The notes under the pieces: model-generated
Told to the model about the DNA's origin: nothing
Database searches by the model: none
The model's input: only the letters and a program-made list of their open reading frames with translations
Translations under genes and position numbers: made by a program
Part shown: in pieces, positions 9,259-62,945 of the stretch
Layout of the letters: every line of letters starts with the position of its first letter
Position numbering within the stretch: position 1 is the first letter of the stretch
From: Hamiltosporidium tvaerminnensis
Taxonomy: Eukaryota > Microsporidia > Dubosqiidae
NCBI GenBank assembly: GCA_022605425.2
Contig: CM061249.1
Coordinates: 496,001-560,000 of the forward strand
DNA length: 64,000 bases
Direction: 5' to 3'

Positions 9259-9263
9259 TCCTT

Positions 9264-15294: not shown

Positions 15295-15315
15295 GATTTT
15301 CTTAAGGCTCTTCGT

Positions 15316-23367: not shown

Positions 23368-23372
23368 TCCTT

Positions 23373-27856: not shown

Positions 27857-27877
27857 CTCAACACTATGTAGGCCTCT

Positions 27878-35119: not shown

Positions 35120-35853
35120 TTTACTTTATTTAAAAGTATCACATCTTTTTACAATAGTGGTAAGTGTTTTATTTGTTTTCATGACATTAATGCAGTTCTA
35201 GGTTTAACATAAATAACTGCTACCCCAAAACTCCATCGGTACATCTTACGATACCTACGCCCTAAAGCCTTTCATCTACCAGGTGTGTAAACCCTAATTA
35301 CTAGGCGAGGCAGTTGCCCGGAGTTCGTTAATGTCCATTGCATGGAGTGTGATCGAAGGCCGAAGCCCCCCCTTGACTCCCCCAAGACTATGCAGCATTC
35401 CCACTTACTCTACACTTTCTGAACCCAATAAACTTCTAGCTAAGATATATTTCAGAGATTTACATGGGGTCCACCTAGACAGTGCAATGTCATACCAACA
35501 GGTATAACCTGCTACTTAGCTCTCCCGGCTTTTAAGGGTTTTTATTTTTTATATCTCCCAGGCGCTAAGTCTTCTAACCCGAGTGAGCAAGGCTAGGTTT
35601 CCATGTTTTTACATGACAATTACCTGCATGTTCAGCCGCGGTCTGCAATCTGGTTACATAAAAAACTACAAATAAATTCGTAGAAAAAGTTTCTCCATTT
35701 TGTAGACCTCTCCTCCTCATAACAATTCTCATGGAACAACCGAAGATGTAGTGTGGTTTTATTTCCACCAAAAATCCAAACAATGACCTCACACCAGTTT
35801 CACACACTCATTGCCAAGCAGAAAGTTTTTTATGTAGTTATCCTCCCTCCACA
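35120..35853 (-). repeat. ~730-bp dispersed non-coding repeat, copy A
   Basis: This is one of five or more copies in the window. It is visibly richer in G+C than the surroundings. The conserved start (in the 50.8-kb orientation) is GGAGGATAACCACATAAAAA and the end is GATGTGATACTTTTAAATAAA. Well conserved internal blocks include CCTTGCTCACTCGGGTTAGA, AAAGCCGGGAAAGC and TTAAACCTAGAACTGCG. Indels between copies are not multiples of three, so it is not coding. No terminal inverted repeats or TG...CA ends were seen. Confidence 0.85.
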
Positions 35854-38800
35854 TGGAATATATCATAAATATTAAATATTCTTAGTTTATTAAAATATTA
35901 AATACTATCTATGATAAATCTAAAAACGAATTTTTTAAATTAATGATTTAAAATATTATTTATAATTCGTTTTGGTCGTTTTAAATAAATACTAACAATA
36001 TAAATATTCTTTTAAAAACGTTTTTTTTGTGGATCTGAATTTTTTAAGATTCTTGAAATGTGCTATACAAGCCTTATAAAAATTAATAATTGAGGTATAA
36101 TGAATGATACAGATAATTTAAATATACTTCTAAATACTAAAATTCTAGAATATCATATCTTTTAAACAAGAAAAAGAAAAGAAACTAAGAAATTTAAAAA
36201 CTAAATATTTCTTAACTAAAATAGAATTGTTTGATTAACAAAATAAAAATTATACGAAATAATAAAAAGGTTTTTTTTCGGGTGAAGATTGAAAATATTT
36301 TTTTTAATTCAAAAATTAACTGAAATTAACAGATTTATTTTTCGAGACAAAAAGCCGGCGTTTTATAAAACTTTTTGTTAAAGAAGCGGTTGATTGATTG
36401 CATGTGATTATATTGCGATTATAAAAGGCTTTATGAACGTAGTTCTAACAAAAAAAGAAAGACTCCCTTTATTGCAAAATGTAAACGCTAGATTTGTATT
36501 TTAATATATCTCTGAATATACAAATAAAAAGGTATAAAAACAGAATTTTTGGTTAAAAAGTTAATATTTTTAGATTTAAATTATGATTTTTTTATATAAA
36601 TTTTGATATGTTGGTTGTAAATAGTAAAAATTTCAGTGATAAATCTAAGCTTTTCTGGAGTATTAATTCAAAAAAAATTTCCAGCGATCTTGATGTAGAG
36701 TTAGTTGAAACACGCCACATAAAAAATCATTTAATAATCCATTAAAAATATTATATGTAATGTAATTTAAAATTTAAACATATCTATAGGATAGGAAGGA
36801 AAGGTTTCCTGACAAATTTAAAAACCAAGTTTAAGAAAGAAAGGTGCTTCAATGAAAAAAGAAGTGAATAACTTGTGAAATAGGTTAAAAAAGCTTAATT
36901 CGAGTAAAAATTGTAATTTAAAACAAAAAATTAAAACGATTTTTTCGAATCAGATACTAATTAAATCTTCGTGAATTATGTCTTTTATTATTGTTAAATC
37001 TGTATTAAGCGAATAAATCTAAGAAAAAAGAAGATTAACATATTTTTTATCTTGTTAAAATCATATGCTATGGTTTTTAAATAATGTCACTGGTTCCGCA
37101 GTAACACCAAAAGTCCAAATCGAGATTGATTAAAATTTTATACACCACTAAAATCAATTTTCTACAATTTAAGTACAAATTAAGCAAAAAAATATAAAAA
37201 AAATTTATACTAAATATTTTTCGTTATTATTTCTCGAGCCTATTGGCTTTTAAATATGTTATTTGTGTATCAAATCAAAAACCTAGACAGTTTTCTATTT
37301 TAATAGAATCAACTATTTGTTTTTAATAGTAAATCAAACTTAATAATTACTCGGATTTCATAAGGTCAGCTTATCTAAACACACGTTTCACTTCTAGCAA
37401 ACTACTAATATAATTTATTTACAATATATACTTAAACATGTTAGGATATAATATTATAAAGTATCTATAGAGTACTATAAAATGTATATTATTTATAGTT
37501 AATACTTTTATATGATTCCAGTTTTTTTTTATTATTTCTCGCTATCGTTATAAAAACTTAGGCATTTTTCATTGATTATACAAGTGTATTTTATATACAC
37601 ATTTTGAATAAATTTTAAATCACAGATTTAAACTTTTGTATTTGTGTCTAAACCCAAGATTGTGTCTATAGGTTCGAAATTAGAGAGCAAAATGAGAATC
37701 AAATGTATACGAGTTTTAGTTCATCTGAAAAGTATTAATAGATTTTAATTTTAAATTAAGCATATTTTATAATTATTTATAGTTTGATCTTATTATATAT
37801 TTTGTTTAATTTAATTAATTTACAATTTTATTTCTTTATACCTTGATATCTTAGTCTATTGTATTTTAAAAGACACATGGGAAAGATGATCAATACTTAA
37901 AAAGCAAACTTATGTTTAATATACCAGACCTGAAATCATAACCTTGATATAAAAGCTTTTCTGATTATCAATAATTTCCTAAAAGAAGAAATATAATAAA
38001 ATATTGATTCATGCTATACATCGTTTCTTCTGAGCTCTTTGATCAAAAAAAATATTTAAACACAAAAATATGAGAAACGGAAACTTTTTTACATATTTTT
38101 AGATCTTTAAAATATAAAAGTAAATGATTTATTAAGAAAGTTAAAAATTTGACAGCCGTTTTTGAAGATTATACTTCCATATTTTATACTTAGATTCTCG
38201 TTCTGTTTATAGGTTTAGCTTCTCCTAGTCGTAAATTTTTAAAGAGAGATTAGCAAAATTGATTTTTTTGAGACAGAGTGACGACGAAATCTAAATTTTC
38301 GAACAGTGATTTCTTTCTATGAAGCTAGTTTTCAGAAAGAATTGAAGAATCGATCATTTTTTGTAGTAATCTAGGGTATAAAACCGACATTATAACCTTT
38401 AGGTTATTCAAATCAAATTTGTTGTGTTTATCAGTGAAATTAAAAATGGTGTGATTTTATTGCATTTGTTTTCTACTATTTAAAATCTAATATATTTGAA
38501 ACTTTATAATACGAATCAAAGGAAATCATGTATTTTACTTAAATTATTGTTAATATCGACAGCTAATTTTTTCTTCAAATAAAATTTGGCTTCGGGTTTA
38601 TGATTTAAAACCTAATAACATAAGAAAACCGTATTGGGATGCTAGCTAATACAAATTAATTATAAACATTTTCCATCTCAAAAAAAGCAAATGTGAGTTC
38701 CAAAAAAATTTAATTAGAAATATATTTGTTGAGATATGATAATAAAAAAAATATATCCCATATAAGAACGAAACCACATTTCTGGTCTCAGGGAATATAC

Positions 38801-38933
38801 TGAAAGCAGTTAGAGCAAAGAAACCAACAGATAAAAGCAGATCGTTTATGATATGATAATAATTATCATACTTTTAGTTATAGCTATCTATAATTTATAA
38901 ATGTAATAAATCAAAAGATGTTAAATATCGTCT
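35854..38933. other. AT-rich spacer, no gene recognised
   Basis: About 3 kb of A/T-rich sequence without a long open frame, tRNA or clear repeat on either strand. Confidence 0.5.
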
Positions 38934-39677
38934 TTAATTATTATCTGTTAATGGATTATAATATAAGTATAAATAATGCAAGGTATTCATCTCCATTGCA
39001 CATAAAAACGTAAAATGATAAAGCAGTAATAACAAAGTCACTTTAAATTTGTTTTTCCTAATTAAATAAACGTAGCATAGTATCATTCCTATTCCATAGG
39101 CTATACTTTTCAATACGAATAGTATTTTGATATTTATTAAAAAAAATTTATAAATAAAGCTGTCTATTAGAATAAAAATGAATAGATAGTAGAAATAACC
39201 GATAAAGGTTATTATAGGAATTTCCTTTCGTATGAATTTGCAGCTATTAAATTTTATACAAATTGAAAAGTAGTTACCAAAACAAAAAATTACATATAAC
39301 AAAGCACATGGCCAAACCAATTCATATATTATTGTGATATTGAGATTGTGTATAAATAACTCAGCCAAAATCGAGAAAAATCCAAAGCTGAATATTATCA
39401 TATAATATAAGTCATGTTTGCTCTCAAAACTCTTTGAATATAATGTAAACACAAATGAACAGTTGAATAATAGCAATAGAATAAAATACTTGAATATAAT
39501 TTTATTAGAGTCGATTGCTCTCAAACCATAAATTATTTTGTATAAATACATCGGAATGAATATTTCTATAACAGCAAGGCATATATCCGCCAAAATTTTT
39601 AGAAATAGATCATAAATATTCAAGTGTCTATATGATACTATATCTCTGGGAATTCTTCTTTCTTTTTTTGGACTCAT
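38934..39677 (-). CDS. Multi-pass membrane protein, ~7 TM, paralogue of 61116-61853
   Basis: A 247-residue protein of unknown function. The start is ATG at 39677, with a basic N-terminus (SPKKERRIPR) likely cytosolic. Hydrophobic segments lie at about 25-46, 60-80, 90-109, 117-140, 153-176, 183-205 and 213-236. The segment ILAELFIHNLN (103-113) and the C-terminal KSIAYG...VYLIRKNKFK (190-212) are shared with the paralogue at 61.1 kb, which aligns along the whole length. It has no signal peptide and no motif I recognise; it could be a lineage-specific microsporidian transporter or receptor-like family. The gene is isolated, with ~3 kb of spacer downstream. Confidence 0.7.
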   Translation of the reverse strand: MSPKKERRIPRDIVSYRHLNIYDLFLKILADICLAVIEIFIPMYLYKIIYGLRAIDSNKIIFKYFILLLLFNCSFVFTLYSKSFESKHDLYYMIIFSFGFFSILAELFIHNLNITIIYELVWPCALLYVIFCFGNYFSICIKFNSCKFIRKEIPIITFIGYFYYLFIFILIDSFIYKFFLINIKILFVLKSIAYGIGMILCYVYLIRKNKFKVTLLLLLYHFTFLCAMEMNTLHYLYLYYNPLTDNN

Positions 39678-40340
39678 TTTCAGGCATTACTTACTTTATG
39701 TTTTATAAAAGAAATTAATTAAAATTAAATTTTAGATTATTCGTTATATTTTAATCATCTAACATTTCCAGATAAAATATTAAATATATTAATTTAATTA
39801 AAACAGATTTTGAATTTCAAAAAGAATAAATTACTAAAAAATATTTCTTACATTTGCTTTAGTTCAATGAGTCTTTATTTGGTTATATTGAGCCTTTCTT
39901 TTACTCTGTTACTAACAATAACTCGGTACTCTAGTGTTGTCTTTTAATTCTGCAAATTAAAGGTTAATTATATTGATAGTTGCAAGCTAGCACATTTTCT
40001 TGTTGAGATTATGATTTAATATATGTATAGGGGATCTTATAATCACAATTCAGCATTCTAATCTAATATGTGCTCCTCTGATTCTCGTCTTATTCCGTTT
40101 AATCTACTCCTATTTATCGACAATAGTACCGAAATAATTATTTATAAGATTAATTTACAGAGTGTATAGCAATATTTACATTGGCAACTGCAACTTTTCG
40201 AAGCTTTTATATCATATGAATATTTGTAAAAAACACACTCAAAATATTGTATAAGGAAATAATTCAGCTACGCATTCCTTGGATGAACTCAATTATCATT
40301 AAAATCATTATTTTGTTAGGCCTTGCCTTATGATTTTAAG
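39678..40340. other. AT-rich spacer between membrane protein gene and hAT element
   Basis: Contains the upstream region of the membrane protein gene. No feature recognised. Confidence 0.5.
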
Positions 40341-43264
40341 CCAAAGGTTTCTAAACTAAGGCTTGCTACTGTTTTTTTGTAAAATAGGCTTTTATCAATG
40401 ATAGAATATAATGAAAAAAATGAAAAAAAATTTACAAAAAATTACAATTATAGATAATTTTAATTATGAATTTGTTGTACAAAGAAAATATATTTAAACG
40501 ACAGCATTTTTTAAAAAAAAAGATCTTATTGTTTATTATTTTATCCGAAAAATCGAAAACAAAATTATACAATATGTGTAGCATAATTTTTTATTTATAG
40601 AATTGATGCAGTTGAGATTTATCCCTAATGATTTGCTGACTTTGTGCGTCAACTGTATTTGGTGAAATTATCAATAATGATTTCAAATGCTTATCTAGTA
40701 ATTCCATTTGTTAATATTTTATCTGTATTTCATTTAGAAGGTTGTTCTTTCACAAAGATAGGCAGTAACGAAAGCGGAAATAAACTCAAGACCAAGTTTA
40801 TGAGTAATGGAATTGTGTACCTGAAAAGCTCCCATAAAATTAAGTAATGGGGAATTTATATATGTTTTTTGCAAATATCACTAGATCACATATACATTAT
40901 TTTCACTAGAAGTTCCGTGGCTAGAGGTTCGATATCAGCTGCAAAGAATTTTGCAAAATTTTCATATCAGTTGCTCCCAAATCCAAATCAAAAAATGTAG
41001 AATATATTTTCTTTTAAATCATCTACAGTTTCTATTGCAAACTTTATTTGAATTTATGTTGTTATTTGCTCACCAAATTTTTGTAATGTATCAAAAAGAT
41101 TGAAACAGTTTTTGCCTAAACTAAATCGAAACAAATAGTATTTATTGACGAAATGATTTGGTACTCGTTTATAATTCAGAGTAGCTGATTTTTTACTTCA
41201 ATTTTAAAAGAAGAATAGGCATATATTCTAACAAAACTGTATATAAATATTTCTTCAAAAACCATTGTTTGCTTAATGACTTGACGAAGGGATAATTCTG
41301 TTATCTTAAAAATACTTCGATAATGTTCTAATTTATCGAAACTGCTTCAAATTTTTCTAAAACGAACTACCGAACTAAGGTATTAAGGTCAACTCATTTT
41401 CTCCAATTTCTTTAATGGACTCATGGAATGCGAAGGGTGTGCGAATGAGACTTAATATAGTTAACAGTTGCTTTGAATAGGCTTTAAACTTTCGAAAAGT
41501 CGAATCCTGTTCCACACAACAATTGTTTAATAAACAGAATACATTATCAATTGTTTTGGTTATTCTACAATTTATTCTGCCTTTGATACAAGAGGAATAC
41601 TCCTTTAGCTTTTCCTCTGATTTATTTTTGCCATCAGTTGAAACAACAGCAAGTTTTGCTATCGAAGATTGGCTTAACTATAAGATTTCTGGCTTTAATA
41701 AAAAAAATCTTATCTAGTGGTTATACTGTAAACGCTAAGAACGTCTAAAGGTCCTATCATAATTTATATAATTCAAATAAATTCCCATATATAAATATTT
41801 TAGAGATATTTTTGAACATCGTTTTACTAAACCAAAGCCAAAGACATCGTTCTAAGAATATGTTTTCTCAATGTTGAGTATTATATTGTCTGGAATGCTG
41901 ACGATTTTCTCCTTATTATCGGGACAACAACCTGATGTTTTTAAATGCATTGATTTTTTTATAGATTGATTGCTATGTAGGTGCGATAATACAATCTTTA
42001 ATTTATCCGCTTTCTGTAAATAGTTAAATAGATTTCGCAAAGAAATAGGCTAAACAAAAACATGCTTTTTTTCTCCTATGTTTTTATTTTTTATACGCAA
42101 TTGTCTGGCTTTAAGCCTAATAATAAATTTTGGGATTTAATATTTGTCAAATTCCACTATAATTCGAGTTGTTCTGAGAATGATTATTTATTTAATAGTT
42201 TTTTATTTTGTATTCTTAGAGAACCGAAATGTTTTCATTGTAAATAAGATATGTTACCACATTGCTCAAATAAATAAGAAAGAATTGACACCTTTATTGC
42301 TAGTTCAACACTTTGTATTACTAACTGTCTTTTCATTGTCGGACTTCATATTTATTGAAATTAGGAAAATAGAAAAAAATAAGAACATGTTAATATTGAA
42401 ATTTGCAGACAAAAATTAAATTAATAAGTTTGTTTGTCGTATTTAAAACAACCATAAAAACCCAAAGATTTTTAAGCTAAGATATTTTGTTCATAATAAA
42501 GTGCGAAGTGATAATTAGTTTTGATTATTTTGGCATAACATAACACTATTCATGGGAAAGTAATGACAATAATGATATGTTAGGTTTTTTATCATTAAAA
42601 AACAAAGCAGATTTTCGCGAACGAAAACACCTAGACGTCATAAATATGATCAGAATGCGACTCTGCACCAGAAAAAAAGTTTTTCCCCATCTTTATAAAC
42701 AAAGACTACTTCTTAATGCACGGTAGCAAGTATTTTCCAATACATTTAATCAATTTCATAAGTAAAAGTGTTTTCCTGGTTGCAATGCACACATAGCTTC
42801 GTTTTTTCCGATTTTGAAGCCCTACCTGCTTTCATTATACTTAAAATTTTACTAAAGTAAAGATGTGGTAGACGAAGGATTGTTGGCAAGGCGTAAGTAT
42901 CAGCATTATCCACAAATAAAGCCATCTATCGAAGTTCATTATGTCTCATCAGCAATAATGAGATTACAAAGACTAACACTTTAAATTTAGCAGTTTTTTA
43001 CGTCTTATTCCTCTATTTATTATATTCCTTTTATTTTAAATTGGCAATTTACTTTTTTAGATATTTATCTATAAAATATTGTTAAGTTTCATTATTATTT
43101 TTTTGAACGTATGTATGAAACTTTAAACATTTGATGCAAAATCAATAATTATATTTATTGAAGAAAAGCATTTTAGTTCGTTGATAAAAATATATAGATT
43201 TTGGTCCTCGAGACTTTTATAGATGGCAATGGGGTCTACACACCAGAATTTTTTTGACCCTTGG
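40341..43264 (-). mobile_element. Decayed hAT DNA transposon (ZBED5/GTF2IRD2-like), ~2.9 kb
   Basis: The left end CCAAAGGTTTCTAAACTAAG and the right end (complement CCAAGGGTC...) are decayed inverted termini of the hAT type seen in animals. The right ~300 bp align with the better preserved end at 63227-63548. Between them the minus strand encodes broken transposase (see the pseudogene entry). No clear 8-bp target duplication remains, as expected for an old insertion. Confidence 0.7.
40650..42850 (-). pseudogene. hAT transposase relic
   Basis: At 41340-41480 (minus) TVNYIKSHSHTLR followed by decayed frames matches the hAT segment VNYIKxRxLxxR that precedes the HTEVRWLSRG motif. At 40650-40800 AFVTAYLCERT then MKYR and NKW match the C-terminal dimerisation domain (pattern YLCExxFS, then KTKYRNKL). 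At 42700-42850 a Cys-containing stretch (KLCVHC) may be the remnant BED finger. Many stops and shifts make it inactive. The family is common in animal genomes. Confidence 0.65.
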
Positions 43265-44237
43265 TTCGAGAAAATTTTGCGCCACAATTTAGACTCAAAG
43301 TTGCACTATCATGATATAATTTTTATTATTGATTTACATTTCACTCTCATATTCTATGAACGCACATAAATTTTTATAATTCTCTCTAGTTTCATCTCAC
43401 CTATGTATTTCAAGAATTTACGTGGGTATTTGGTTGTATATTTGCTGTTAAGATTTACATTAATATCCATTTAGAAGAAAGATGTGGTTTAGTTATTTGG
43501 GTATAGTGTATGTGTTTCACACATTAGATATCCATTCTTTGAATACGCAGTCGATGAATCCATGATTTCGGTTATTTCTATAGGTTATCATTTGACTTGT
43601 AAACCCAAGAATTATATTTCAACCCGAGATTCAAGTAGAAATACTTTTTTATGTGACTTGTTTTTTATTTCATAAGCTACCATGAAAAAATTCATTCACT
43701 ATATTGCTGTGTGTTTTCATTCTTATATGACTGTAGATGTAATTAACTTCTTCTAAAAATTGATAGTCAAACGAACAAAATTACTTTTAGCCAGGGATTT
43801 AGTATTCTATATTTCGATTCGATAATTATTTATATCGGTAAATATAAGTCACTTATATGGCTTGTATTCTAAGAATTTCTGTATATGTAGCTCAATGATT
43901 TTAATTTAAAGATATATCGAACCTCGGCAAATATTTACCCAAAACTCAATAAATAATACTCTCTGACATTCTCAGATGTAAGAAGGGTGTCATCTTGTTT
44001 TCCATTTTGATCTAAAAATAACTTTTTTTCACCAGAAATACGCGTTTTGATTCATATAATTTAGAAAATTTACCTAGAAAATTTGAAGTAGTTCTATAGA
44101 TAATTTATTTAAAAATATTTAAGCTATATTAATGACATTAAACAAATCACCCGTGTTAAATTTACCATGAAATTCTTTTTCTACTTTGATAAAATATTCA
44201 TATATTTTGTATCTTCTTTATTATGAAATATTTATAA
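43265..44237. other. Spacer right of the hAT element
   Basis: No gene or repeat recognised. Confidence 0.45.
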
Positions 44238-44322
44238 CACGATAACCTTCTAAAGAATAGAGTATCTTCACGAAATGTATCATTTGTGGCTGATTTCTTT
44301 TTCGAACCTTTAACTCTTTTTT
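44238..44322 (-). mobile_element. LINE relic fragment
   Basis: The segment with AACCTTCTAAAGAATAGAGTATCTTCACGAAATGTATCATTTGTGGCTGA-like sequence matches the LINE reverse transcriptase region at 14075-14137 with several changes. A short isolated fragment of an old insertion. Confidence 0.75.
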
Positions 44323-47846: not shown

Positions 47847-48570
47847 TGGAGCGAGCATAACAACAAAAAAAACTTTCTACTTGGCAATTAGTATATGAAA
47901 CAGATATAAAGATCATTGTTTGAATTTTTGGTGGGAATAAAACACACTACATTTTTGGTTGTTCCATGAATGTTTTTATGTTGAGTAGGTGTAGTCACGA
48001 AATTAAGAAATCTTTCGTCGAATTTATTTTGCAGTTTTTTGTGTAATTAGATCGGAGACCACGGCTGAACAAGAGGGTAATCGTGATGTAAAAGCATAGA
48101 AACCTAGCCCTGCTCACTCGGGTTAGTAGACCTAGCGCCTACGAGATACAAAATAAAAACATTTAAAGCCGGGAAAGCCAAGTAGGAGGTTATACTTATC
48201 GTTATGGCATTGCTTGCCTAAGTGGACCCGTTTAAGTCTCCGAAATATATCCTAACCAGAAGTTGTTTGGGTTTGGAAAGTCTAGATTGCGTGGGAGATC
48301 GTAAAACCGGAGAACCAAAGATGGCTTTCGACCTACGATCAAACACCACGAAATAAACATTAACGAAATCCGGGCAACCAATTCGCCGATTAATTAGGTT
48401 CTACGTATGTTTTAGGTGAAATTATTCAGGATGTTCTTGTCGCAGGGGTTACTGATAGACTATTAGACCAGCTTTTATCTATGTTAAACCTAGAACTGCG
48501 TTAATGTCATGAAAACAAATATAACCTTTGCCCCTATTTTAAAAAGATGTGATATGTTTAAATAAAGTAC
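47847..48570 (+). repeat. ~730-bp dispersed non-coding repeat, copy B
   Basis: Full-length but diverged copy. The blocks CCTGCTCACTCGGGTTAG, AAAGCCGGGAAAGCC and TTAAACCTAGAACTGCG are kept, while the G-rich middle seen in copy C is altered. Confidence 0.85.
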
Positions 48571-49464: not shown

Positions 49465-50745
49465 TAGAAGACCTACATAGTGTTGAGTTGCGAAGCGAAC
49501 ATATGCTTCTGCAACTCTTTGATTGTCTGGAAAAAAGTAAAGAAATATCAACTAGACGAGCAGCAATCCTCAAGGTGGAGAATAATAATAAAACCCATCT
49601 TGTACTAATAAAAGGCTTCTTAAAAGTAAAGTACAGGTTGGTAGAAGAAGTCACTAAGAAAAGTTTAGAAGAAGCTCAACTTGCAAAACTATATAACGAA
49701 ATAGAAAAACGAAGACTCCATTCAAAGTTATATAATGCAAGGAAAAATGAGCTGTGTAAGTGTTAGTGACTCTTCAAGATGGCTAAAGAAAGGGAATATT
49801 AGGCCACGCAATGAAGCTGTGTTCTGCTATATCCAGGATATAAATGTATTCTGGGGAGCAGATGGGGTGTGTCCACATTGTGGGAAGTCTGGTAAGACTG
49901 TAGATCATCTAGCAACTAGATGTGAAAAAATGCTAGGCCATGATTACACTAGACGGCATAATGAAGTGGTTAGATGCCTACACTTACTTCTCTTAAATAG
50001 ATATAAGTTTAAGTCTTCAAAACGAATTAGGAGCCACTCAGTTCAAGAAATTCTTGATAATGAGTATGCAGAGATAAGAGTGGACACCGGAATAAAAACT
50101 GATGTTAAAATTAGGAATAACAGACCCGACATATTTATTTTAGATAAGAAGAAGAATAAGATAACACTCATTGAAGTAGGAATCACTTCCCAAGATTCAC
50201 TTCAAACAGTTGAAACTTAAAAACTTAGGAAGTATGACCTGTTAGCCAATGATTTGGGTCTTATTTATAAGTGTAGTGTTGAGATAATCCCTTATGTGAT
50301 GACCTGGGACGGTATTGTGACAAAATACCATAAATCTCATCTTAAAAGGCTAGAAATACCCATGGATGTAGAAGCATACATTCAGTCTATAGTACTTAAG
50401 AAGATAGTCGAAACAATTTCCTTTGATCGACGAAGAGGACTTGAGTTAGGACTAAATGCCGAAGAGAGCGTCAATGGGTGTTATTATGAGAGCAGAGATG
50501 CATGAGGAACCAACACCCTTTTTAAAAGAAGAGAAGAGAGAGGAAGATGGTGCAAAAAATTTTAAACCAAAAAATAAAGCACCCTTTATTTCACAAGGAG
50601 GAATCACTTTAGAGGAACCGACCAATAAAATAAATAAAGAGTCGGATTTGGAAGAAGAGACAAAAGTGGTTAAAGAGGTAGAAGAAAACATATAAAAATG
50701 GTAAAAATATTTTAACCCAGAATTTTATTAAATAAATTTCTTTTC
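49465..50745 (+). mobile_element. 5'-truncated LINE copy (plus strand)
   Basis: Begins abruptly inside the LINE at the sequence encoding LHSVELRSEHMLLQ and runs to the common 3' end AACCCAGAATTTTATTAAATAAATT. 5' truncation is typical of target-primed reverse transcription. It retains 21 bp (encoding VTKKSLE) that the three minus-strand copies lack, so it comes from a different source element. Confidence 0.88.
49466..50695 (+). pseudogene. LINE C-terminal region (finger, endonuclease, acidic tail), broken
   Basis: The first frame reads to about 49766 (LRSEHMLLQ...KLYNARKNEL). 49735-50220 carries the zinc-finger-like CPHCGKSGKTVDHLATRC, TRRHNEVVRC and the nuclease core RPDIFILDKKKN...IEVG. 50254-50505 carries VEIIPYVMTWDG. 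50456-50695 is the Glu/Lys-rich tail ending VVKEVEENI. Here the finger keeps CxxC spacing with His and Cys ligands in place. Confidence 0.8.
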
Positions 50746-50808
50746 TAGCATTTGAGTAAATATTATGGGTAATATTATTGTAATTTAAATAATAATCATA
50801 TAGGTCGT

Positions 50809-51532
50809 GAAGGGAGGATGACCACATAAAAAACTTTCTGCTTGGCAATGAGTGTGTGAAACTGGTGTGAAGATCATTGTTTGGATTTTTGGTGGGAATA
50901 CAACCACACTACATCTTCGGTTGTTCCATGGGAGTTGTTATGAGGAGGAGAGGTCTAAGAAATGGAGAAAGTTTTTCTACAAATTTATTTGTAGTTTTTT
51001 ATGTAACCAGATTGCAGACCGCAGCTGAACATGTAGGTAATTGCCATGTATAAGCATGGAAACCTAGCCTTGCTCACTCGGGTTAGAAGACTTGGCGCCT
51101 GGGAGATATAAAACAAAAAACCATTTAAAGCCAGGAAAGCTAAGTAGCAGGTTATACCTGTTGGTATGACATTGCACTGTCTAGGTGGACCCCATGTAAG
51201 TCTCTGAAATATATCTTAGCTAAAAGTATATTAGGTGCAGAAAGTGTAGAGTAGTGGGAATGCTGCATAGTCTTGGGGAGCCCAGGGGGGGCTTCGGCCT
51301 TCGATCACACTCCATGCAACGGACACTAACGAATTCCGGGCAACTGCCTCGCAAATTAATTAGGTTTTACACATCTGGTAGATGAAAGGCTTTGGGACTT
51401 TTGTATCTCAGGAGGTAGTGAGGGTGTGGTGGGGTAGCAGTTATTTATGTTAAACCTAGAACTGCGTTAATGTCATGAAAACAAATATAACACTTGCCAC
51501 TATTTTAAAAAGATGTGATACTTTTAAATAAA
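50809..51532 (+). repeat. ~730-bp dispersed non-coding repeat, copy C
   Basis: The copy most similar to copy A. It lies 64 bp after the truncated LINE. It contains a G-run (GGGGGGG at about 51287) and the block GGCTTCGGCCTTCGATCACAC. Confidence 0.88.
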
Positions 51533-52293
51533 TCATATAGGTAATTTACACGAATTAAAATTGATAATTTATATTTGTTGAAAGCAAAATATATTTTTTA
51601 ATCAGAATATGTAAGTAATTTCTCATGGTGTTATTTCGACTCTCTTTTATACAATTAACGAATTTTGTTGGCTATGATCAATACCACAGCCACAAAAATA
51701 ATAAAAATATATTCAATTCATTTAAAATTGGATTAATTTGAATATTATTTCCTTTAGAAGGTTCTTTTAATTTTTTTAAGTTTAAAAATTCAATTAATCT
51801 GATAGAATCTACTAGATAATTATATAGAAGGGGAAATAAAGATATTAAAAAAATCAGATGATTTAATATTTATTTATCACCAAGTATAAATTCTGGCTAA
51901 TATTGCGATATAACTAGGTTAAAATACTTCTTTTTTCACTTATTTTCAATAATCCTAATACTTTATTAAGATTAATCTCAAGATATCCTTGATTCCCTTA
52001 TTTTTTTATCCTCAATACAATATTATTCTTTTAAAAATATATAAATAATTCAGTTTTAATTTGTTGCAGCAAAAAAAACCATTTGATTAAAAAAATATTT
52101 TTAAATGTTCAAAAAAACAATCGAAATGTTTTTTTTTTGAAAGCGAATTGGGTTTTACTTTCAAAATAATATTTTTTGATTTATCGACAGTTTCTATATT
52201 TTCTTTATCCATATTGAACAATGGACTTTCACTCCTTTCGATCACTTTTTTTTATTTTTATTTAATTATTACCGTCATTTTTTGTTATCAGAA
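51533..52293. other. AT-rich spacer upstream of Tom40
   Basis: No repeat or RNA recognised. Holds the Tom40 promoter region. Confidence 0.5.
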
Positions 52294-53193: not shown

Positions 53194-54290
53194 TTTTTCA
53201 TAGTTTTAATCTATTATAGTATATTTTAATTTTAAGACTGGTTTTTAGGTAAAAACCACAAATTGATTTAGTTTATAGATAATAAAAATATCTCTTATTT
53301 TTTATATTTACTGTATTTTCGAATCGCTTTCGTATTTAGATTTGTATTAAATCTTACAAATAATTTTACAAACTTTTTATATTTTTTTAACCTGAAATGC
53401 ATTCAGATTTTATAAACTTAATAAAGCATATTTTTTAGATATTTTTATATTTAATATTTCTTTTAATGATCATAGAAAATTCATTAAAATCGTTTTATTT
53501 GGAAAGAATGTTGATGATATTGTAATTTAAAATATAAAGCTATGTTATTTTTACTTTCGAAAAAAATATTTCTTGTATCAGTTAGGAGCCATGAAATGAA
53601 TAAAATCAAATTTTTCAAATACATATAAAACTAAAAAGGAATATATAAATCCATTGAAATGTTGGCATAACTACCACTTTACGTTTATTAATATAAAAAT
53701 TTAAAACTTAAAACAATAATTTAAATTAGATGTATATTGTTTGAAAAAAAAATTGAAAAAATGATGAATGCAAAAGGAATTTTCTATCGTTTGAGTCATA
53801 AAAATATATTTTTAAGTCTTTTTTTTCTTTTATCTCTTCAATATTAGGAAATCGAATGATATGATATTTTTAAAAATATATTCGTTATATTCAATTCTAT
53901 TGCTACATGTTTTAAAGCTAGAAATATTATTTTTTGAACATCGATAAAAAACGTTTCTGCTACTGTAATTATAAAACCGTATATGGTTTATAACGCTACA
54001 AATTTTAAATAAATTCAAAAGTTTATAAATTTTTATTTTATATTAATTTTAATCATAATTTTCTATTTATTTTTACACTTCTGTTTTTGTAGATTCTCAT
54101 AAGATAACAGAATTTAAAGAATTTATTTTATATTAATTTATCTTAAAAAAATATCGATTTGACTTTTTATGATTAATTTTTCAAAATTTCGAATAAAAAT
54201 TCAAATTATCAACGATACCGTCTAAAAGTCTCACTTAAAAATAAATTATTTGTTGAATTATTTTACAATATTTTTTAAATTTATCTAAAA
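53194..54290. other. AT-rich spacer downstream of Tom40
   Basis: About 1.1 kb with no feature recognised. Confidence 0.5.
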
Positions 54291-55018
54291 GTGGAGGTAG
54301 GATAACCACAGAAAAAACTTTTTGCTTGGCAATGAGTGTGTGAAACTGGTGTGAGGATCATTTTTTGGATTTTTGGTGCAAATAAAACCCCACTAAATCT
54401 TCGATTGTTTCATGGGATTTGTTATTAGGAGGAGAGGTCTAAGAAATAGCGAAATTTTTTCTACAAATTTGTTTGTAGTTTTTTATGTAACCAGATTGCA
54501 GACCGCTGCTGAAACTATAGGTATTTGCTATGTAAAAGCATTGAAACCTAGCCTTGCTCACTCGGGTTAGAAGACTTATTGCCTGGGAGATATAAAAATA
54601 AAAACCATTTAAAGCCGGGAAAGCCAGGTAGCAGGTTATAGTTGTTGTTATAGCATTTCTTGTCCAAGTCGACCTATTTAAGTCTCCGAAATATATCTTA
54701 TCTAGAAGTTTATTGGGTTTAGAAAGTCTGGATTATATGGAAGAGCGTACAGCCTGAGAACTAAAGATAGCTTTAGACCTTCGATCAAACTCCACGCAAT
54801 CAACAGCAAAGAACTTCGGGCAACTGCCTCGCGTAGTAATTAGGTTCTACACACCTGGTAGATAAAAGGTTTTGGGATGTAGGTATCCCAGGGTTTAGTG
54901 ATGGTGAGGTGGGGTAGCAGTTATTTATGTTAAACCTAGAACAGCGTAAATGTCATGAAAACAAATATAAACTTGCCACTATTTGAAAAAAGATTGGATA
55001 CATACTCTTAAATAAAGT
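54291..55018 (+). repeat. ~730-bp dispersed non-coding repeat, copy D
   Basis: Full-length copy starting GTGGAGGTAGGATAACCACA and ending CTCTTAAATAAAG, with more substitutions than copies A and C. It lies ~85 bp beyond the 3' end of the dUTPase-like gene. Confidence 0.87.
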
Positions 55019-55101
55019 TTTTATTTGAAACCAAAAATTATTTAAACTCTTAAAATATTTAAAAATATTTTTTAATTTAGAATTATCCATTAAATACTCA
55101 T

Positions 55102-55443
55102 TTAATTACAAAATGTAAATACCATTTGAGCTATTCTATCATTTACATTATATATAAATTCCTCTTTTCCATAATTAGTTACACAAACCACTATTTCTTG
55201 TAATGTATTTGGTGGAATATATTCACCAGATACATCTATAAGATGTTTAGATGCTAAACCAGAACGTGGTAATATAAGTGTAAGATATGGTACTTCTAAA
55301 AGTATTCCTGTATGTATAAATGTGGTGGTTTCTGGTGCTATTTTACGCGATGTACATGTATATAAATCATAACCGGCTGAACCAGATGTTTGGCGATGTG
55401 GTACTTTGGCATCATGATGTATTTTTTTAATTGTATATGTCAT
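55102..55443 (-). CDS. dUTPase-like protein, short, lacking motif 5
   Basis: The dUTPase family hydrolyses dUTP to dUMP, keeping uracil out of DNA; the enzyme is a trimer. This 113-residue protein (ATG at 55443) has motif 1 (SAGYDLYT), motif 2 (PRSGLA) and a motif 4-like NDRIAQMVF. Motif 3, which normally supplies the catalytic Asp and the uracil-stacking Tyr in a GVIDxDYRGE pattern, is replaced here by GEYIPPNTLQEI. The Gly-rich motif 5 is absent because the frame ends at FTFCN. The family is usually ~140 residues. It may be a divergent, inactive or differently completed enzyme. I see no motif 5 in the next ~80 bp. Confidence 0.75.
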   Translation of the reverse strand: MTYTIKKIHHDAKVPHRQTSGSAGYDLYTCTSRKIAPETTTFIHTGILLEVPYLTLILPRSGLASKHLIDVSGEYIPPNTLQEIVVCVTNYGKEEFIYNVNDRIAQMVFTFCN

Positions 55444-55445
55444 TA

Positions 55446-55450
55446 TGGGT
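55446..55450 (-). promoter_or_regulatory. CCC-type start-proximal motif of the dUTPase-like gene
   Basis: ACCC lies three bases before the ATG on the minus strand (ATACCCATAATG), supporting 55443 as the start rather than the in-frame TTG further upstream. Confidence 0.45.
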
Positions 55451-55464
55451 ATTAAATTTAGCAA

Positions 55465-55821
55465 AAATATAGGAAAAAATGATTTTAGATAGAAATAACG
55501 GAAATGTTTAGATTTATTAAAAAATAAATTTGATTGCTCAAAAATATAAAGAAAAATGATTTCTTATTGTACTGTATGTTATGAATATTCACATAGTAAT
55601 GTTTTTCGTTTAAAAGTTTTTATTAGTGTATTTTTAAAAATAATAATTTTTTTCTATGTTTTTCTATATTTTTATGTTTCAAATCAAACATGTTTCTAAC
55701 TAATTATGTTTTACTATCTTTATAATAACAGAACTTCACTTCAATATTTTAATTGATAAATTATGTGGTAAACAATTTAATATTTATTTTTTGTAATAAT
55801 TATATTATATTTAAATTTATG
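55465..55821. other. AT-rich spacer
   Basis: Upstream of the dUTPase-like gene. No feature recognised. Confidence 0.45.
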
Positions 55822-57121
55822 CAAAGAACGTCTATACCTTCCACGTAAAGAACTTGAAAGCGGTTTAAATAGTGTCGAGTTCAAAAGCAGACATATGCTT
55901 TTGCAACTCTTGGATTGTCTGGAAAAACATAAAGATACATCGACCAGAAGAGCAGCAATCCTAAAGGTTGAGAATATCTATAAAACCCACCTTTCACTAA
56001 TTAAAAACTTTTTAAAAATAAAATACGGGTTGGAAGAGGAAGTCACAAAAAAGAAATTGGAAGAAGCTCAACTTGCAAAACTATATAACGAAATAGAAAA
56101 ACGAAAACTCCATTCAAAGTTATATAATGCTAGAAAAAATGAGCTGTGTGTGTTAGTGACTCTTCTAGATGGCTAAAGAGGAGGAATATTAGGCCACGAA
56201 ATGAAGCGGTGTTCTGCTATATCCAGGATAGAATTGTATTCTGGCAGAATGGTATGTGCCAGAACAGCAATCAATCTAAGAAAACAGTAGAATACTAAGC
56301 AACTGATGTGAGAAAATGCTTGTTCATGACTTTTATAGACGGCATAATGAAGTGGTTAGATGCCTACACTTAATTCTACTAAATAGATATAAGTTTAAGT
56401 CCTCAAAACGAATTAGGTGTCACTCAGTTCAAGAAATTCTTGATAATGAGTATGCAGAGATAAGAGTGGACACCAGAATAAAAACTGATGTTAAAATTCG
56501 GAATAACAGACCCGACATATTTATTTTAGATAAGAAGAAGAATAAGATAACACTCATTGAAGTAGGAATCACTTCCCAAGATTCACTTCAAATAGTTGAA
56601 ACTGAAAAACTTAGGAAGTATGACCTGCTAGCCAATGAGTTTGGTCTTATTTATAAGTGTAGTGTTTAGATAATCCCTTATGTGATGACTTGGGACGGTA
56701 TTGTGGCAAAATACCATAAATCTCATCTTAAAAGACTAGAAATACCCATGAATGTAGAAGCATACATTCAGTCTATAGTACTTAAGAAAACAGTCGAAAC
56801 AATTTCCTTTGATCGACGAAGAGGACTTGAGTCAGGACTAAATGCCGAAGAGAGCTTTTAGAGAGCGTCAATGGGTGTTATTATGAGATCAGAGATGCAT
56901 GAGGAACCAACACCCCCTTTAAAAGAAGCGAAGAGAGAGGAAGATGGTGCAAAAAATTTAAAAACAAAAAATAAAACCCCCTCTTTTCACAAGGAGGAAC
57001 CACGTTAGAGGAACCGACCAATAACATAAATAAAGAGTCGGAGTTGGAAGAAGAGACAGCAGTGGTTAAAGAGGTAGAAGAAAACGGATAAAAATGATAA
57101 AAATATTTTAACCCAGAATTT
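55822..57121 (+). mobile_element. 5'-truncated LINE copy, more decayed (plus strand)
   Basis: Starts inside the LINE at the sequence matching KERLYLPR and ends at the common AACCCAGAATTTTATTG tail. It keeps the VTKKKLE codons found at 49.6 kb. The truncation point lies ~57 bp upstream of that of the 49.5-kb copy, so it is an independent insertion. Confidence 0.87.
55895..57091 (+). pseudogene. LINE C-terminal region, broken
   Basis: 55895-56176 encodes MLLQLLDCLEKHKDTSTRR through KLYNARKNEL. The zinc-finger segment around 56225-56310 is scrambled and has lost its Cys pair. 56316-56669 holds RRHNEVVRC and the nuclease core RPDIFILDKKKN. A TAG then interrupts CSVEIIPYVMTWDG, and a Glu-rich tail ends at about 57091. 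More mutated than the 49.5-kb copy. Confidence 0.78.
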
Positions 57122-57280
57122 TATTGAAAAAAAGTATATTGAAAAGTCAAAATTTTTATATAAATAAAAAATCTTTGTATAATCGATATAAATTTTTTAA
57201 AATATAAATCAAAAATACAAATAAAATACTTTGAAAAATAGTTAAATCAAAAATACAAATAAAATATAATTTCATTTCTT

Positions 57281-57964
57281 TTATTGATACAATGCATATT
57301 TTTTTAGATTATTTATAATATATTGAATGTAATATATTATTTTTTGAACAAATATACTCGGATGTGCAAATCTGTTATATGAATCATATTTAAAGGCTGT
57401 ATATACGTAATTATGTACAGATTGAATGTTCTGATACCAAGAAAATATCAGTACAGTCAATAATGTTAGTATAAGTAGATTATATACGGTGTTTTTTATT
57501 CCAATAATTTTACCTTTTTGGTTTACGATTGATATTACCGGTTCCCGATCTGATTTTGAATTATCGACTGATGAAATCTCCCATTTTTTTGATAAAATCA
57601 GTTCTTTATTATTATTTGTTTCGTTTTGAGAGAGATGAGTGTGGAAGGCACTTAAAGGTAAAATTGGTTTAGAAGGATTATTTTCTGAAATTATCTTATT
57701 ATTTACACTTGTATTCGTATATGTCAAATACAAAGAACCATTTTTATCAACTATAGGAAGTAGATCATCTTTCCATCTCTTGATCATTTCAATCTCATCG
57801 GGTGTAAGCTCATGTAAAGAATCGTCATCGAATTGTGGAGTGTAAAAGGAGTTTAAATTATATTCATTGTCAGGTACACATGCATAACTTGTTCTGATTT
57901 CATTCCACTTGTTATTAGTTTTCTTTTCTTCTTTTATTTTTTTTATTGTTCCTACACTTTCCAT
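57281..57964 (-). CDS. Single-pass membrane protein of unknown function, 227 aa
   Basis: ATG start at 57964. The first ~155 residues are hydrophilic and acidic, with LTPDEIEMIKRWKDDLLP (residues 53-70) predicted helical and several Asn/Ser-rich stretches. One hydrophobic helix at about 159-176 (YNLLILTLLTVLIFSW) is followed by ~50 residues rich in Tyr, Ile and Lys. There is no N-terminal signal, so probably an internal anchor with a cytosolic N-domain. I recognise no family. The frame is intact and conserved-looking despite the adjacent LINE, 160 bp away and facing it tail to tail. Confidence 0.6.
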   Translation of the reverse strand: MESVGTIKKIKEEKKTNNKWNEIRTSYACVPDNEYNLNSFYTPQFDDDSLHELTPDEIEMIKRWKDDLLPIVDKNGSLYLTYTNTSVNNKIISENNPSKPILPLSAFHTHLSQNETNNNKELILSKKWEISSVDNSKSDREPVISIVNQKGKIIGIKNTVYNLLILTLLTVLIFSWYQNIQSVHNYVYTAFKYDSYNRFAHPSIFVQKIIYYIQYIINNLKKYALYQ

Positions 57965-58869
57965 TGTTTATGCTATTTTGTTTATTTTAATATTTTTTAA
58001 TAAAACATTTTTAAAACAAAATTTACTATTCTTGGTGTTATTTCTTTGAAATAAAATGTTTCAAAAAGTATTTTATAAGAAAAAAAGCGTTTTGATGTTG
58101 ATAGCAAACAATTTCATACTTAAAATGTTTTAAATTGTATATTTTCATGTATTTTAAAGATTGAAATTTTGATATAAATTTCTAAAGTATGAAATTTATT
58201 TTCTTATTTTTTAAAAAAATTATCATTTAAGTTTTTAATAGCGATATTTTAATTTGATGATCTCATTTTATCTTATAATGTTTAAAAGCAGGTTCTAAGG
58301 TTTTTATTTATTGATTATATTTTATTCATAGTTATAGATCTTTATATAGGTGTTTTATTTTGTTAAAAAGCTTATTTCGAGTTGTTTTTTTCATATAAAT
58401 ATTATCACCTTATTCCTTGCTTTTATAGCCGCTTAAACCTTTAAATTGTTTTTAAAACCTTGGAATTCATATAAATTTTATATTTTTATCGAATAAATCT
58501 TCATATGTTAAAAGAGATAAAATTAAATAATATTTTGTAATCTAAGGTGATCATTATGCCAATAATTATTCTAAATTCTGATTCATTTGTATTTTTAATA
58601 CAAATTTAATCTTTTATTTTGCTAAATAATTTTTAAAAAACAACGAATCTGCTTCAATCCCAATCTTATTCACCTAAAATGTGTTTACGAGTATATTCTA
58701 TAAAATAATTGTACTTTCTAAAATATATATATTGTAATAATTTAGGTGAATTCTATCTTATAAAATCTCCTAAAGAAATTTTTAAAAATAAAAACCATCA
58801 TAACAAATATTTTAATAGCTATAATCTGGTTTATATTTACTTGATAATATTACATATTTAAAAAACTGT
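57965..58869. other. AT-rich spacer
   Basis: No feature recognised. Confidence 0.45.
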
Positions 58870-59540
58870 GGTACGTGTTATATTGTTTCCTTGAAATCCA
58901 CGCGGTTTTGGTTTTAACATAGATAATTGATTCTCAGCACTACATCGATATCTAAATCCCAAAGCCTAAATCTATATGGTCTATAAAACCTAATTTCTGG
59001 TCTAAGCAGAACCCCAAAGTTCGCAAATTACGATTTTAGAGACTATTACTTACGCCAAAACCAACCCCGGGCTTTCCCAATACCATATCGCGCTTCCACT
59101 TACTCTATATTTTCAGATGCAAAGAAAATTTTAGCTAGGATATATCTAAGAGGCTTACATTTAATTCAACTAGACAGATCAATGTCATATCAAAGTGTAT
59201 AACCTGCTACTCAACTTTTCTGGCTTTATTAGTTTCATTTTTATACTTCCGTGCGCTATATCTTATAATCTGAGGGAACAAGCCTAGATTTCTATGCTTT
59301 TATATGGCAATTACCTACCAGTTCAGCTGCAGTCTGCGATTCTGTTAAATAACAAACTACAAAAAATAAAAAAATGGTTTTCCTATTTGTAGATTACCTC
59401 TTTCTCATACTAAAACCAAGGACTAACCAAAAATAGAATGTTGTTTTATCTCACCGAAAATTTAAACAAAGCTGTCATACATCAATTTCACATACTCATT
59501 GTCAAGCCGAAATTTTTTATTTGGTTATTTTCTCTATAAC
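58870..59540 (-). repeat. ~730-bp dispersed non-coding repeat, copy E (decayed)
   Basis: Alignable along nearly its full length to copy A, with many substitutions and small deletions. ATAACCTGCTAC, GGCAATTACCTACC and CTCATTGTCAAGCCGAAA are readable anchors. Confidence 0.78.
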
Positions 59541-61115
59541 TGTAATCCAGTTTAAAAGAAACAAACATCTATAATTTCTCGAAGATTTGTTATTATTGGG
59601 CTATAATTTAAATATAAAAAATGCACTAAATGATATATCTAGTTAAAATACCGAGCATTTACTCAGAAATACTTTGTATTACAGACAGTACGTTATTTAC
59701 TTCATGGTTTCGAATTAAAATTACTCAACATCAACTTTGGTTTTACCATCAGATAAACTTATTTTTCTAAGGTCAAAAGAAAAAATAGTCTAAATATATT
59801 TAAATTAAACTACAAAGAGCTATAATTTGCAAAAAAATATTTTTTTACTCATAATTTATTTAAATTTCTTGGAGACAACTTGGCATATACTGACAACCGA
59901 GAAAAAAAACTATAAAAATTGAAGAAGTCCAACATACCTTACCTCAATATATATTTAAATAATGCATATCCGAAATCTAATATTATATTTAAAACTACGC
60001 AGAAATAATTGAAAGCGTTTATCAGATATGAAATAAATAATTTTAAAATTGAAAACTAGTTGATGCGAAAAGATAATGAACTTGAAAAATTCATATTTTT
60101 ATAAAAGAAATTCCATGATTGCGTTTAAAGAAAAAAAATTTTTTTATAATCACAAATATTAGGCTTTTATTATGATAATTTGAATGAAATTAAAAAAATA
60201 AGAACTATAAATTACAAAATAATGATATTGCGAGAGCATGTTATAACTTGGCAATAATGTAAAGCCTTCTGTATACCGAAAAATATTTAAAAGTGCTAAC
60301 ATACCATTACTAGTCTGTTGAATATACGAATCAAAAGGCTGGTTTACATTTTGCAAACAATACAACTCTCTGTTAATAGAAATTTATTCCAGCATCAGGT
60401 ACATGTTTATTTTATTGAAAGAAACCGATATCATGCTGGAGTACATCTAATAAACCTGTAATGGAATTCAAAAAGTAAAACCAGCCAAATATGTTGGTAA
60501 CAATTTTTTGACAAAATACTAGAAATCAGAAAAATAAAGAAATTTGCAAGAAACTTCATCTCGTAATTATGTAAGGTAAAAATAAGTGATATAAGAAATA
60601 AATTTTATTTTAATATACGTGGCAATTTATTTATGAGTAGCTTTTGGATTCGAATATGGTTGCTTCCCATATGATCTAACTATATTAGAAACATTTGGCG
60701 AATTTTATTGATAACATTGCGCGTATTCATGTAAGAAGATTACGTATCAAATAATATTAGTAAGATTGCGGACCATACAGATGATACAACGAAAGTTATT
60801 AGTTTGGTGCGAATTATACTCCTAAACTTACCTTTTATAGTTTTAAAAATTATTATGCCACTCACATAGTATGAATTCCATATAAATTTGAAATATTATG
60901 AAATAATGAAATCTACAAAGTCTATTATCTTTTTATAAAATGAATTATAACGATTTTAAAGGAAATGTTCATGAATTAAAATAGGAATTTAAAAAACCCA
61001 AAATATTTTATTACTATCAGACTATGACCAATAAACACATATTCATAGAGAAATTGTAATTTTTTTCATTAATTATTAGAAAAATATTAGAATTAAATAA
61101 AAAACCACTATGATT
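59541..61115. other. AT-rich spacer
   Basis: About 1.6 kb between the decayed repeat and the second 7-TM gene. Short frames only, none convincing. Confidence 0.5.
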
Positions 61116-61853
61116 TTATTCTTCAATAATGTTATGTAGAGCTTGTATGTTCTTTAGCTCTAAAGAAAATAGAAGTAAGGAATAATACATACATAGCAAA
61201 AAGGATTGCTTAAAACTATTTTTCCTAATTAAATATATGAAAGTTATGATTATTACAAAAACATAACTTAAGGACTTGAATAAAACCAAGTCTGCTATGG
61301 TTATATAAAATACTTTAGCGAAAATATTGTCCACACTAATCATAACAAAAATAAAAGAGCAAAATTCTAAAAATAACTCAAAAGAGACTTTTTTCTGAAT
61401 AAAATTCCAATTATTATAGCGAAATGAGACAAACAAATACGATAAAATATTTAGTATAGCATATATAGCTTTTGCTTTTGAATCGAAATTCCAAAGAGAA
61501 CTAAAATTAAGTTTATGAATTAATATCTCTGATATAATTGATGAATATATCAATACCAAAGTTGTTAAATCGTATTTATCATAACTTCTATTGTTATCGG
61601 AATTAAACGGATTTAATAGATCAGATAAGCTCAACAGAAAAGCTATTATATAATATTTTATAAAAATAGTTTTCAAAGGAAATTCTTGATCTAAAATATT
61701 CCATCTCAGACAAAATGCAAGCACTATAACTAAAAGGATTATCCATTCTAAACATAGAATAATGAAATTATATACCATATTGTAAACTCTATATCGTTGA
61801 TTTCGTTTAAACTTGGCATATTCTCTTTTATTTTTCTTCAAACTCATATTCAT
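61116..61853 (-). CDS. Multi-pass membrane protein, ~7 TM, paralogue of 38934-39677
   Basis: A 245-residue protein of unknown function. ATG at 61853, with a second in-frame ATG two codons later. The N-terminus is strongly basic (KKNKREYAKFKRNQR). Hydrophobic segments lie at about 28-49, 62-80, 96-112, 128-144, 158-175, 183-206 and 215-232. SEILIHKLN (108-116) and FKSLSY...IYLIRKNSFK (192-215) align with the gene at 38.9 kb at matching positions. Outside these motifs identity is low although the helix layout is the same, so the duplication is old. Most likely a lineage-specific family with further members elsewhere. Confidence 0.7.
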   Translation of the reverse strand: MNMSLKKNKREYAKFKRNQRYRVYNMVYNFIILCLEWIILLVIVLAFCLRWNILDQEFPLKTIFIKYYIIAFLLSLSDLLNPFNSDNNRSYDKYDLTTLVLIYSSIISEILIHKLNFSSLWNFDSKAKAIYAILNILSYLFVSFRYNNWNFIQKKVSFELFLEFCSFIFVMISVDNIFAKVFYITIADLVLFKSLSYVFVIIITFIYLIRKNSFKQSFLLCMYYSLLLFSLELKNIQALHNIIEE

Positions 61854-62589
61854 GTATCGGTATATATATTAAAAAATATAATTAAAATTAAAACCCGAAA
61901 ATTTTTTTGTTAGTTAATTAATTAAAAAGTATCAAGGACAAATCTTTTGTTCTAATAGGATTGTTTATCATAAAATTTAGATTTTCTGGAAAAATGTTAG
62001 AACTATAACAACTTTTATTTTAAATGAAAAACAAAGAAATTCATTCGAACTATATACTTTAGAAAATAAATGGTTTTCGACTATAAATATAAAAAACATT
62101 TCAATTTTATCGTTAATTCTATAATATTATCTAAAAAATTTTCTTTTTAAATTTTCGATTTTTATAAAATATACATTCGAATTTCGATTATAAATTTATA
62201 TGAATTGCAATCCAGGACTTGTTATTTGTGTTGTTTAGAATTAATATCATCTTTTCTTTAATATTATAATTTACCTATCTGAATAAATTGTTTTTTAAGT
62301 TTATATTACTCACAAAACAGAATACAAGATTTAATTCAGAAAAAAGCGAATAATTAAAAATTCATATTTTCCAAATATCAAATAAATTAAAATTTAAAAG
62401 TAAATGAATATTTTGAAAGCTTTTGTGGTTTTCATAATCTATGGTTCATTATAAAAATATTTATTCCTTATATTATAAACCAAATCTTTTTTTAATTAAA
62501 AATTGCATCTTTTTAAAAAAGTAGAAAGGAATTTGTTTTCAAAACCTTGAAGAAGTCCTGAGTTCGAATTGGATAAATGTTCACGCAAA
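61854..62589. other. AT-rich spacer
   Basis: No feature recognised. Confidence 0.45.
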
Positions 62590-62945
62590 TTTATACCAGC
62601 ACTCCTAGAAACCTATATCAAATAGCTTTTAGTTTAATGAAGTCTAGAACCTATTGTATTGGGAAGTATTTCCCCGGGTTCATAAATTTAGGTTGCATTA
62701 GGCTATTGCAAACAATGCCGCAGCTCGAGGCTTTAAAACCAAAAGCATTTCTTTTTATTCAATACTTCCCGAATCTCATAAACATCCAGCCAAGATATAT
62801 CTCGGCGACTTACATGGGGTCCACCTATTGTAGCAAAGTCCTACCAAAACCTATAAACTGCTACCTAGCTTTCCCTGCTTTTAAAGGGAATTTTTTTATA
62901 TTGTCCAAGCGCTAGGTATTTTGATTCGAGTAGGCAAGATTATTT
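62590..62945 (-). repeat. ~730-bp dispersed non-coding repeat, partial copy F
   Basis: Matches the middle half of copy A (compare 35280-35600), including GACTTACATGGGGTCCACCT, CTGCTACCTAGCTTTCCC and CCCCGGGTTCATAAAT. Both ends are missing. Confidence 0.7.

Follow-up and report, generated by a model that had tools for sequence, protein, structure and literature searches.

What kind of DNA is a G+C-rich, non-coding repeat that recurs several times over a short distance in an AT-rich genome? This question is raised by a 64,000-nucleotide stretch of Hamiltosporidium tvaerminnensis, a microsporidium that parasitizes Daphnia (contig C4, positions 496001-560000; called the window below). The genome analyzed has 21,638,905 bases in 17 contigs, and the published assembly is described as 21.64 Mb in 17 contigs with 26.6% GC (PMC10542269). 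An earlier note on the window had reported at least six copies of about 730 bp and had offered three explanations: a non-autonomous retroelement, a solo long terminal repeat (LTR) of an unusual family, or a structured RNA. We consider it very probable, from sequence comparison, that the repeat is a non-autonomous retroposon of H. tvaerminnensis that resembles a short interspersed nuclear element (SINE) and depends on a long interspersed nuclear element (LINE). The dominant R2/R4-type LINE of the genome would be its helper, and insertion would proceed by target-primed reverse transcription. It seems to belong to a kind of mobile DNA that is already known, as a member not described before.

A dispersed repeat family with fixed ends

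The element is about 726 nt long. Its ends are fixed, as had been noted before: aligning copies start with GTGGAGGGAGGATAACCACAT and end with GATACTTTTAAATAAA. Within the window, copy C (50807-51532, plus strand) is full length (GTGAAGGGAGG...TTTTAAATAAA). Copy A (35125-35852, minus strand, 92% to copy C) and copy D (54291-55016, plus strand, 83%) are full length as well. Copy B (47847-48566, plus strand, 77%) is near full length and old, and copy E (58835-59528, minus strand, 70%) is also old, with its first 11 nt unaligned. The sixth reported copy, F (62756-62938, minus strand), is only a fragment that matches element positions 263-447 at 74%, which leaves five near-complete copies in the window. 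For each of three motifs taken from the element, the count observed in the window was reached in 0 of 100 shuffles.

The repeat family is real and genome-wide. The first motif, a 15-mer from the middle of the element, occurs at 389 places in the genome, versus 0 for its reversed control, and exact motifs from the 5' and the 3' end occur at 273 and 245 places, respectively. On contigs C1-C3, there are 66, 98 and 60 motif places, with 44, 33 and 25 shared. Mark-recapture from these overlaps gives 605 to 733 copies in the genome, which is a lower bound because intact motifs are correlated. A search with one 20-mer of the element found no match in prokaryote genomes and none in viral contigs, a weak test that included no other microsporidian genome.

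A sample of 63 distinct full or near-full copies with flanks was drawn from the window and from loci L001-L068. With few exceptions, these copies start with GTGGAGGGAGG and end with AAATAAA, usually followed by a G. Several features ascribed to the family were borne out: the longest stop-free run in element copies is at most 77 codons, neither inverted ends nor a poly-A tail were found at the ends of the 63 copies, and the majority sequence has 41.8% GC compared to 26.6% for the genome. Divergence from the majority sequence is below 8% in 56 copies and as low as 0.7% in the youngest. This low divergence is biased, because most copies were picked by score (the best 40 matches from a search with 1279 first-look candidates). 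In the copies at L060 and L068, the first 22 nt or so (GTGGAGGGAGGATAACCACATA) occur twice, head to tail, and template switching at the 5' end of an RNA may be the cause.

Target-site duplications, truncated copies and an empty site

The earlier note had suggested that copies be aligned in a search for target duplications, and these were found. Among 61 full copies with both flanks present (excluding copies that aligned short of the ends or lay near the end of a locus; score-ranked loci supplied 52 of the 61), 49 are flanked by perfect repeats of 9-19 bp with a mode of 13, while mismatched-flank controls gave 26 of 1200. In 47 of these 49 copies, 0-3 nt separate the flanking repeat from the element's 5' end. 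At the 3' junction, the filler is most often one G (17/49). All 49 duplications start with A or T. In the window, copy C has such a duplication (TCATATAGGT, plus strand), with its left part at 50796-50805 and its right part at 51533-51542.

Four insertions have lost their 5' side and keep the 3' end. They retain about 44 nt (L072), 54 nt (L079), 70 nt (L115) and 368 nt (L045) of the element, and they are flanked by repeats of 11, 12, 14 and 9 bp, respectively; at L072, the insertion forms a triplicated array. As established for non-LTR elements, target-primed reverse transcription is recognized by copies that lack the 5' side but keep the 3' end, and these truncated insertions point to that mechanism.

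An empty site was also found. At L032, a copy of the element lies inside LINE sequence, and when its flanks are joined over one duplication, they align over 80-89 bp, at 94-99%, to LINE copies without the insertion (L089, L090, L095, L096, L102, L104, L106 and L108; for single loci, 98% in L089, 99% in L104 and 98% in L108). The joined flanks of L037 in turn match L032 over 91 bp at 100%. Of the 160 spanning matches listed in this search, most are to a copy's own flanks or to AT-rich neighbors, and only these two cases were counted. With variable duplications, truncated copies that carry them and an empty site, the first of the three explanations, a non-autonomous retroelement, is well supported.

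The same observations bear on two other kinds of element. If the repeat were a solo LTR, its single copies would have been left by recombination between the paired repeats of an LTR retrotransposon. Fixed ends and the lack of coding capacity would fit, and copies B, C and D have the same orientation at spacings of 3.0 and 3.5 kb. However, instead of gag-pol, these copies enclose a porin gene and a truncated LINE. The element starts with GTGG and ends with AAATAAA, unlike the TG...CA of LTRs, and its duplications are long and variable instead of having one short fixed length. Among neighbors closer than 10 kb at the 98 motif places on C1-C3, 8 are on the same strand versus 11 on opposite strands, with no recurrent spacing, and the 5'-truncated copies with duplications contradict an LTR directly. 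We therefore regard this origin as extremely unlikely. Still less credible, to the point of being nearly negligible, is a non-autonomous DNA transposon akin to a miniature inverted-repeat transposable element (MITE). Such an element could be short and non-coding, with many copies and both ends fixed, but the 63 copies lack terminal inverted repeats, duplications ranging from 9 to 19 bp do not fit, and 5'-cut copies that retain duplications speak against it. MITEs are described from Nosema (PMC4405373) and are likewise short non-autonomous repeats of microsporidia; they are, however, DNA elements with inverted repeats, which the repeat studied here lacks, while it does have truncated reverse-transcribed copies. 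Entamoeba ERE2 (PMC2657916) shares some traits with the repeat (about 800 copies, duplications of 3-14 bp, AT-rich targets). Identity with ERE2 was rejected, as that element is 1.9 kb long and has imperfect terminal inverted repeats of 22 bp and an open frame.

The dominant LINE as the likely helper

A retroposon of this type would borrow its reverse transcriptase. A genome search for the corresponding domain (PF00078) gave 456 candidates, of which 150 matches were scored, many of them in stop-free frames about 1250 aa long. RVT_1 is the sole Pfam match of the protein of the dominant LINE. In an alignment of 11 sequences, residues C1000, C1003, H1012, C1017, P1085 and D1086 are invariant, and E1101 is nearly so. 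We take this combination of CCHC and PD...E residues to be the motif expected of a restriction-like endonuclease, and the LINE is presumably of the type named R4/Dong. By these sequence features, it is assigned as an R2/R4-type LINE with a restriction-like endonuclease and without an apurinic/apyrimidinic endonuclease. The best match of the protein is a reverse transcriptase of H. tvaerminnensis (93%). Close relatives are filed under bacterial metagenome-assembled genomes (Paraclostridium, Riesia, Turicibacter), probably as a result of microsporidian contamination; with further relatives under Theileria, Babesia, Octopus and Polistes, the distribution is patchy. The LINE starts at its ATGGG start or a few nt before it and thus has almost no 5' leader. 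In nine LINE copies with a duplication (L097-L101, L103, L105, L107 and L109), no more than about 11 nt separate the start of the LINE from ATGGG.

The LINE and the repeat have the same terminus. In 13 of 14 LINE copies, the 3' end is TTAAATAAA. These 14 ends comprise 12 that all fit (two of them from one tandem repeat) and those of two 5'-truncated copies in the window. One of the latter (49469-50736, plus strand) ends with TTTTATTAAATAAA and fits, whereas the other (55819-57132, plus strand) has a decayed 3' end (TTGAAAAAA for TTAAATAAA). Element and LINE agree in all of their 9 terminal nt and at 12 of the final 15 positions. Only 0.1% of the 15-mers in the window match that well, and the 9-mer itself is found at 32 of 128020 window positions on both strands. 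The insertions are also alike: 9 of 12 LINE copies have duplications of 13-15 bp, all nine beginning with A or T (L089 is ambiguous, and two copies in a tandem repeat have none). On this basis, the dominant LINE is the likely helper of the repeat.

Several points weigh against this interpretation. A perfect duplication of at least 9 bp is absent from 12 of the 61 full copies. Of the five copies in the window, C alone has one; for A and D, none was found. The truncated copy at L045 has a duplication of only 9 bp. The end common to element and LINE is only 9 nt long and resembles the poly(A) signal of the species (A[A/U]UAAA); since AAUAAA also serves as this signal, the shared end could be convergent. 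Beyond it, a blastn comparison of the element with the LINE loci gave no E-value below 0.22, a result that also led us to reject the element as a deletion derivative of the LINE. The 3' end of another LINE family, L091, was not located. A separate matter, the idea that the copies often sit beside truncated LINEs, holds only weakly. Some LINE lies within about 1.5 kb of 22 out of 55 copies, and LINE sequence makes up 11% of the flanks of these 55, compared to 7.07% for all retroelements in the published genome (PMC10542269).

The same SINE-like retroposon might instead be mobilized by a LINE other than the dominant one. The sequence held in common with the latter is limited to the terminal 9-15 nt or so, and there are at least two further LINE-like families, L091 and L092. 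In the second of these, the frame is followed by a (TTTTA)n-like region, unlike in the element. A LINE with the same longer 3' end was not found on C1-C3, where all 60 listed places of the 3' motif belong to the repeat family (38 assigned by the spacing of motifs and 22 by sequence) and none to a LINE. As the dominant LINE agrees with the element in its end as well as in the length and first base of the duplication, another helper is improbable.

With the dominant LINE as helper, mobilization could proceed as follows. A source copy, with a promoter in it or near it, would give rise to an RNA of about 726 nt that starts with GUGGAGGGAGG and ends with AAAUAAA(G). The LINE protein would bind the 3' end of this RNA, nick an AT-rich target at about ..ATT|T, and reverse transcribe the RNA at the nick. 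Such a reaction would yield duplications of about 13 bp, with 0-3 extra nt where the 5' end of the insertion joins the target and a short filler on its 3' side.

A third LINE copy in the window (26624-30140, minus strand, 92% to L089) contains the reverse transcriptase and lies inside a tandem repeat. The latter covers positions 1-30378 with slightly more than two copies of a unit of about 14.1 kb (1-16263 versus 14076-30378, 99.0%). Besides the LINE, the unit contains an Alg9-like mannosyltransferase and a kinase-like frame. There are tRNA-like Rfam matches at 7099 and 21206, for which ARAGORN predicts no tRNA. Between positions 30500 and 35000, the GC skew switches sharply, from -0.60 to +0.53, over low-complexity frames rich in Asn and Thr.

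The presumed element RNA and the relation to known SINEs

Could the repeat be a family of functional structured RNA genes, or their retrocopies, kept by selection on the RNA? Conserved internal blocks had been taken as a sign of such constraint. This did not hold up: in eight old copies, the mismatch z-scores of the three named blocks are only -1.5, -1.2 and -0.7, and 103, 159 and 262 of 713 windows of 15 nt are more conserved than they are. Differences among blocks of the element are significant (chi-square 103.6, 36 blocks), mainly due to hot segments at 141-180 and 461-520. The fold energy is slightly below that of 20 shuffles (z -1.7), but the opposite strand folds equally well (z -1.6). 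The RNAalifold covariation term is -0.15. Changes on both sides were found for 16 predicted pairs, which none of 300 column shuffles reached (mean 7.1). A second control, which preserves the relatedness of the rows, uses random column pairs made up of the same letters; these have a mean of 14.0 and reach 16 in 124 of 400 cases. The latter control is preferred because old copies carry most of the changes, so that the significance obtained by the simpler shuffle is not sustained. The share of paired cells exceeds that of random pairs on both strands alike (0/400 each), as expected because the structure was derived from the alignment. No Rfam family reached the cut-off; the best E-values were 0.32 for copy C (searched up to 10) and 0.38 for L037 (up to 1). 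A head derived from 5S rRNA, tRNA or a ribozyme, considered because of a by-eye likeness to 5S, was rejected for lack of such a match. Selection for a structured RNA is thus very unlikely to explain the family.

The sequence also offers hints about the RNA polymerase. Pol III (RNA polymerase III) is expected to stop at runs of five or more T. All 63 copies have such a run within the first 230 nt, which argues against transcription by Pol III. A- and B-boxes are no better than in shuffles (300, 143 and 289 of 300). The AAUAAA end would fit a transcript made by RNA polymerase II, and synthesis by a polymerase other than Pol III is thus suggested. Judged by its sequence, the repeat is not a SINE in the strict, Pol III-derived sense, as it has neither a small-RNA head nor a box above chance. 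It is most probably a SINE in the broad sense: it is short and non-coding, with many dispersed copies, variable duplications, and truncated copies that have duplications. The SINEs of Aspergillus fumigatus that are related to tRNA and 5S (PMC5063351) are likewise short and non-autonomous and have direct repeats (4-14 bp there). They differ from the repeat, which has no Rfam-like head, no Pol III box above shuffles, and T-runs in every copy.

By published description, the closest working likeness seems to be the pair EhSINE1/EhLINE1 of Entamoeba histolytica. EhSINE1 is non-coding, about 500-600 bp long, thought to use the LINE machinery, and flanked by duplications (PMC2996970, PMC3118788). It prefers T-rich sites, bears only a weak resemblance to A- and B-boxes, and has no known precursor small RNA (PMC2996970). 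A title cited in PMC3118788 refers to an Entamoeba LINE/SINE pair that shares sites cut by a restriction-like endonuclease. The differences are that the organism is unrelated, that the repeat is longer (726 nt), and that EhSINE1 RNA is transcribed and polyadenylated, whereas the repeat is known from DNA alone.

It is tempting to speculate that the repeat founded a microsporidian class of retroposons. Its origin would be some non-coding RNA transcribed by another polymerase than Pol III, with a processed or otherwise fixed 5' end (GUGG...CCAC, present twice in two copies). A LINE with a restriction-like endonuclease would recognize no more of the element's RNA than its last 9-15 nt or so. We rate this as rather unlikely.

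No report of a SINE in Microsporidia was found in the titles and abstract openings of the literature searched, and the words SINE and SINEs are absent from the main text of the microsporidian genome and transposon papers that were searched by passage. Microsporidia are a textbook case of genome reduction, and yet interspersed repeats make up 39.56% of the H. tvaerminnensis genome, with 25.45% of the genome classed as "other" (PMC10542269). If our interpretation is correct, part of this unclassified share would be a SINE-like family and its helper. A second pair of a SINE and a LINE with restriction-like endonuclease, also devoid of Pol III signals, would allow a comparison with Entamoeba as to how the RNA is made and how it is recognized. 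Insertions that differ by 1-2% from the majority sequence may serve as markers between populations of this Daphnia parasite.

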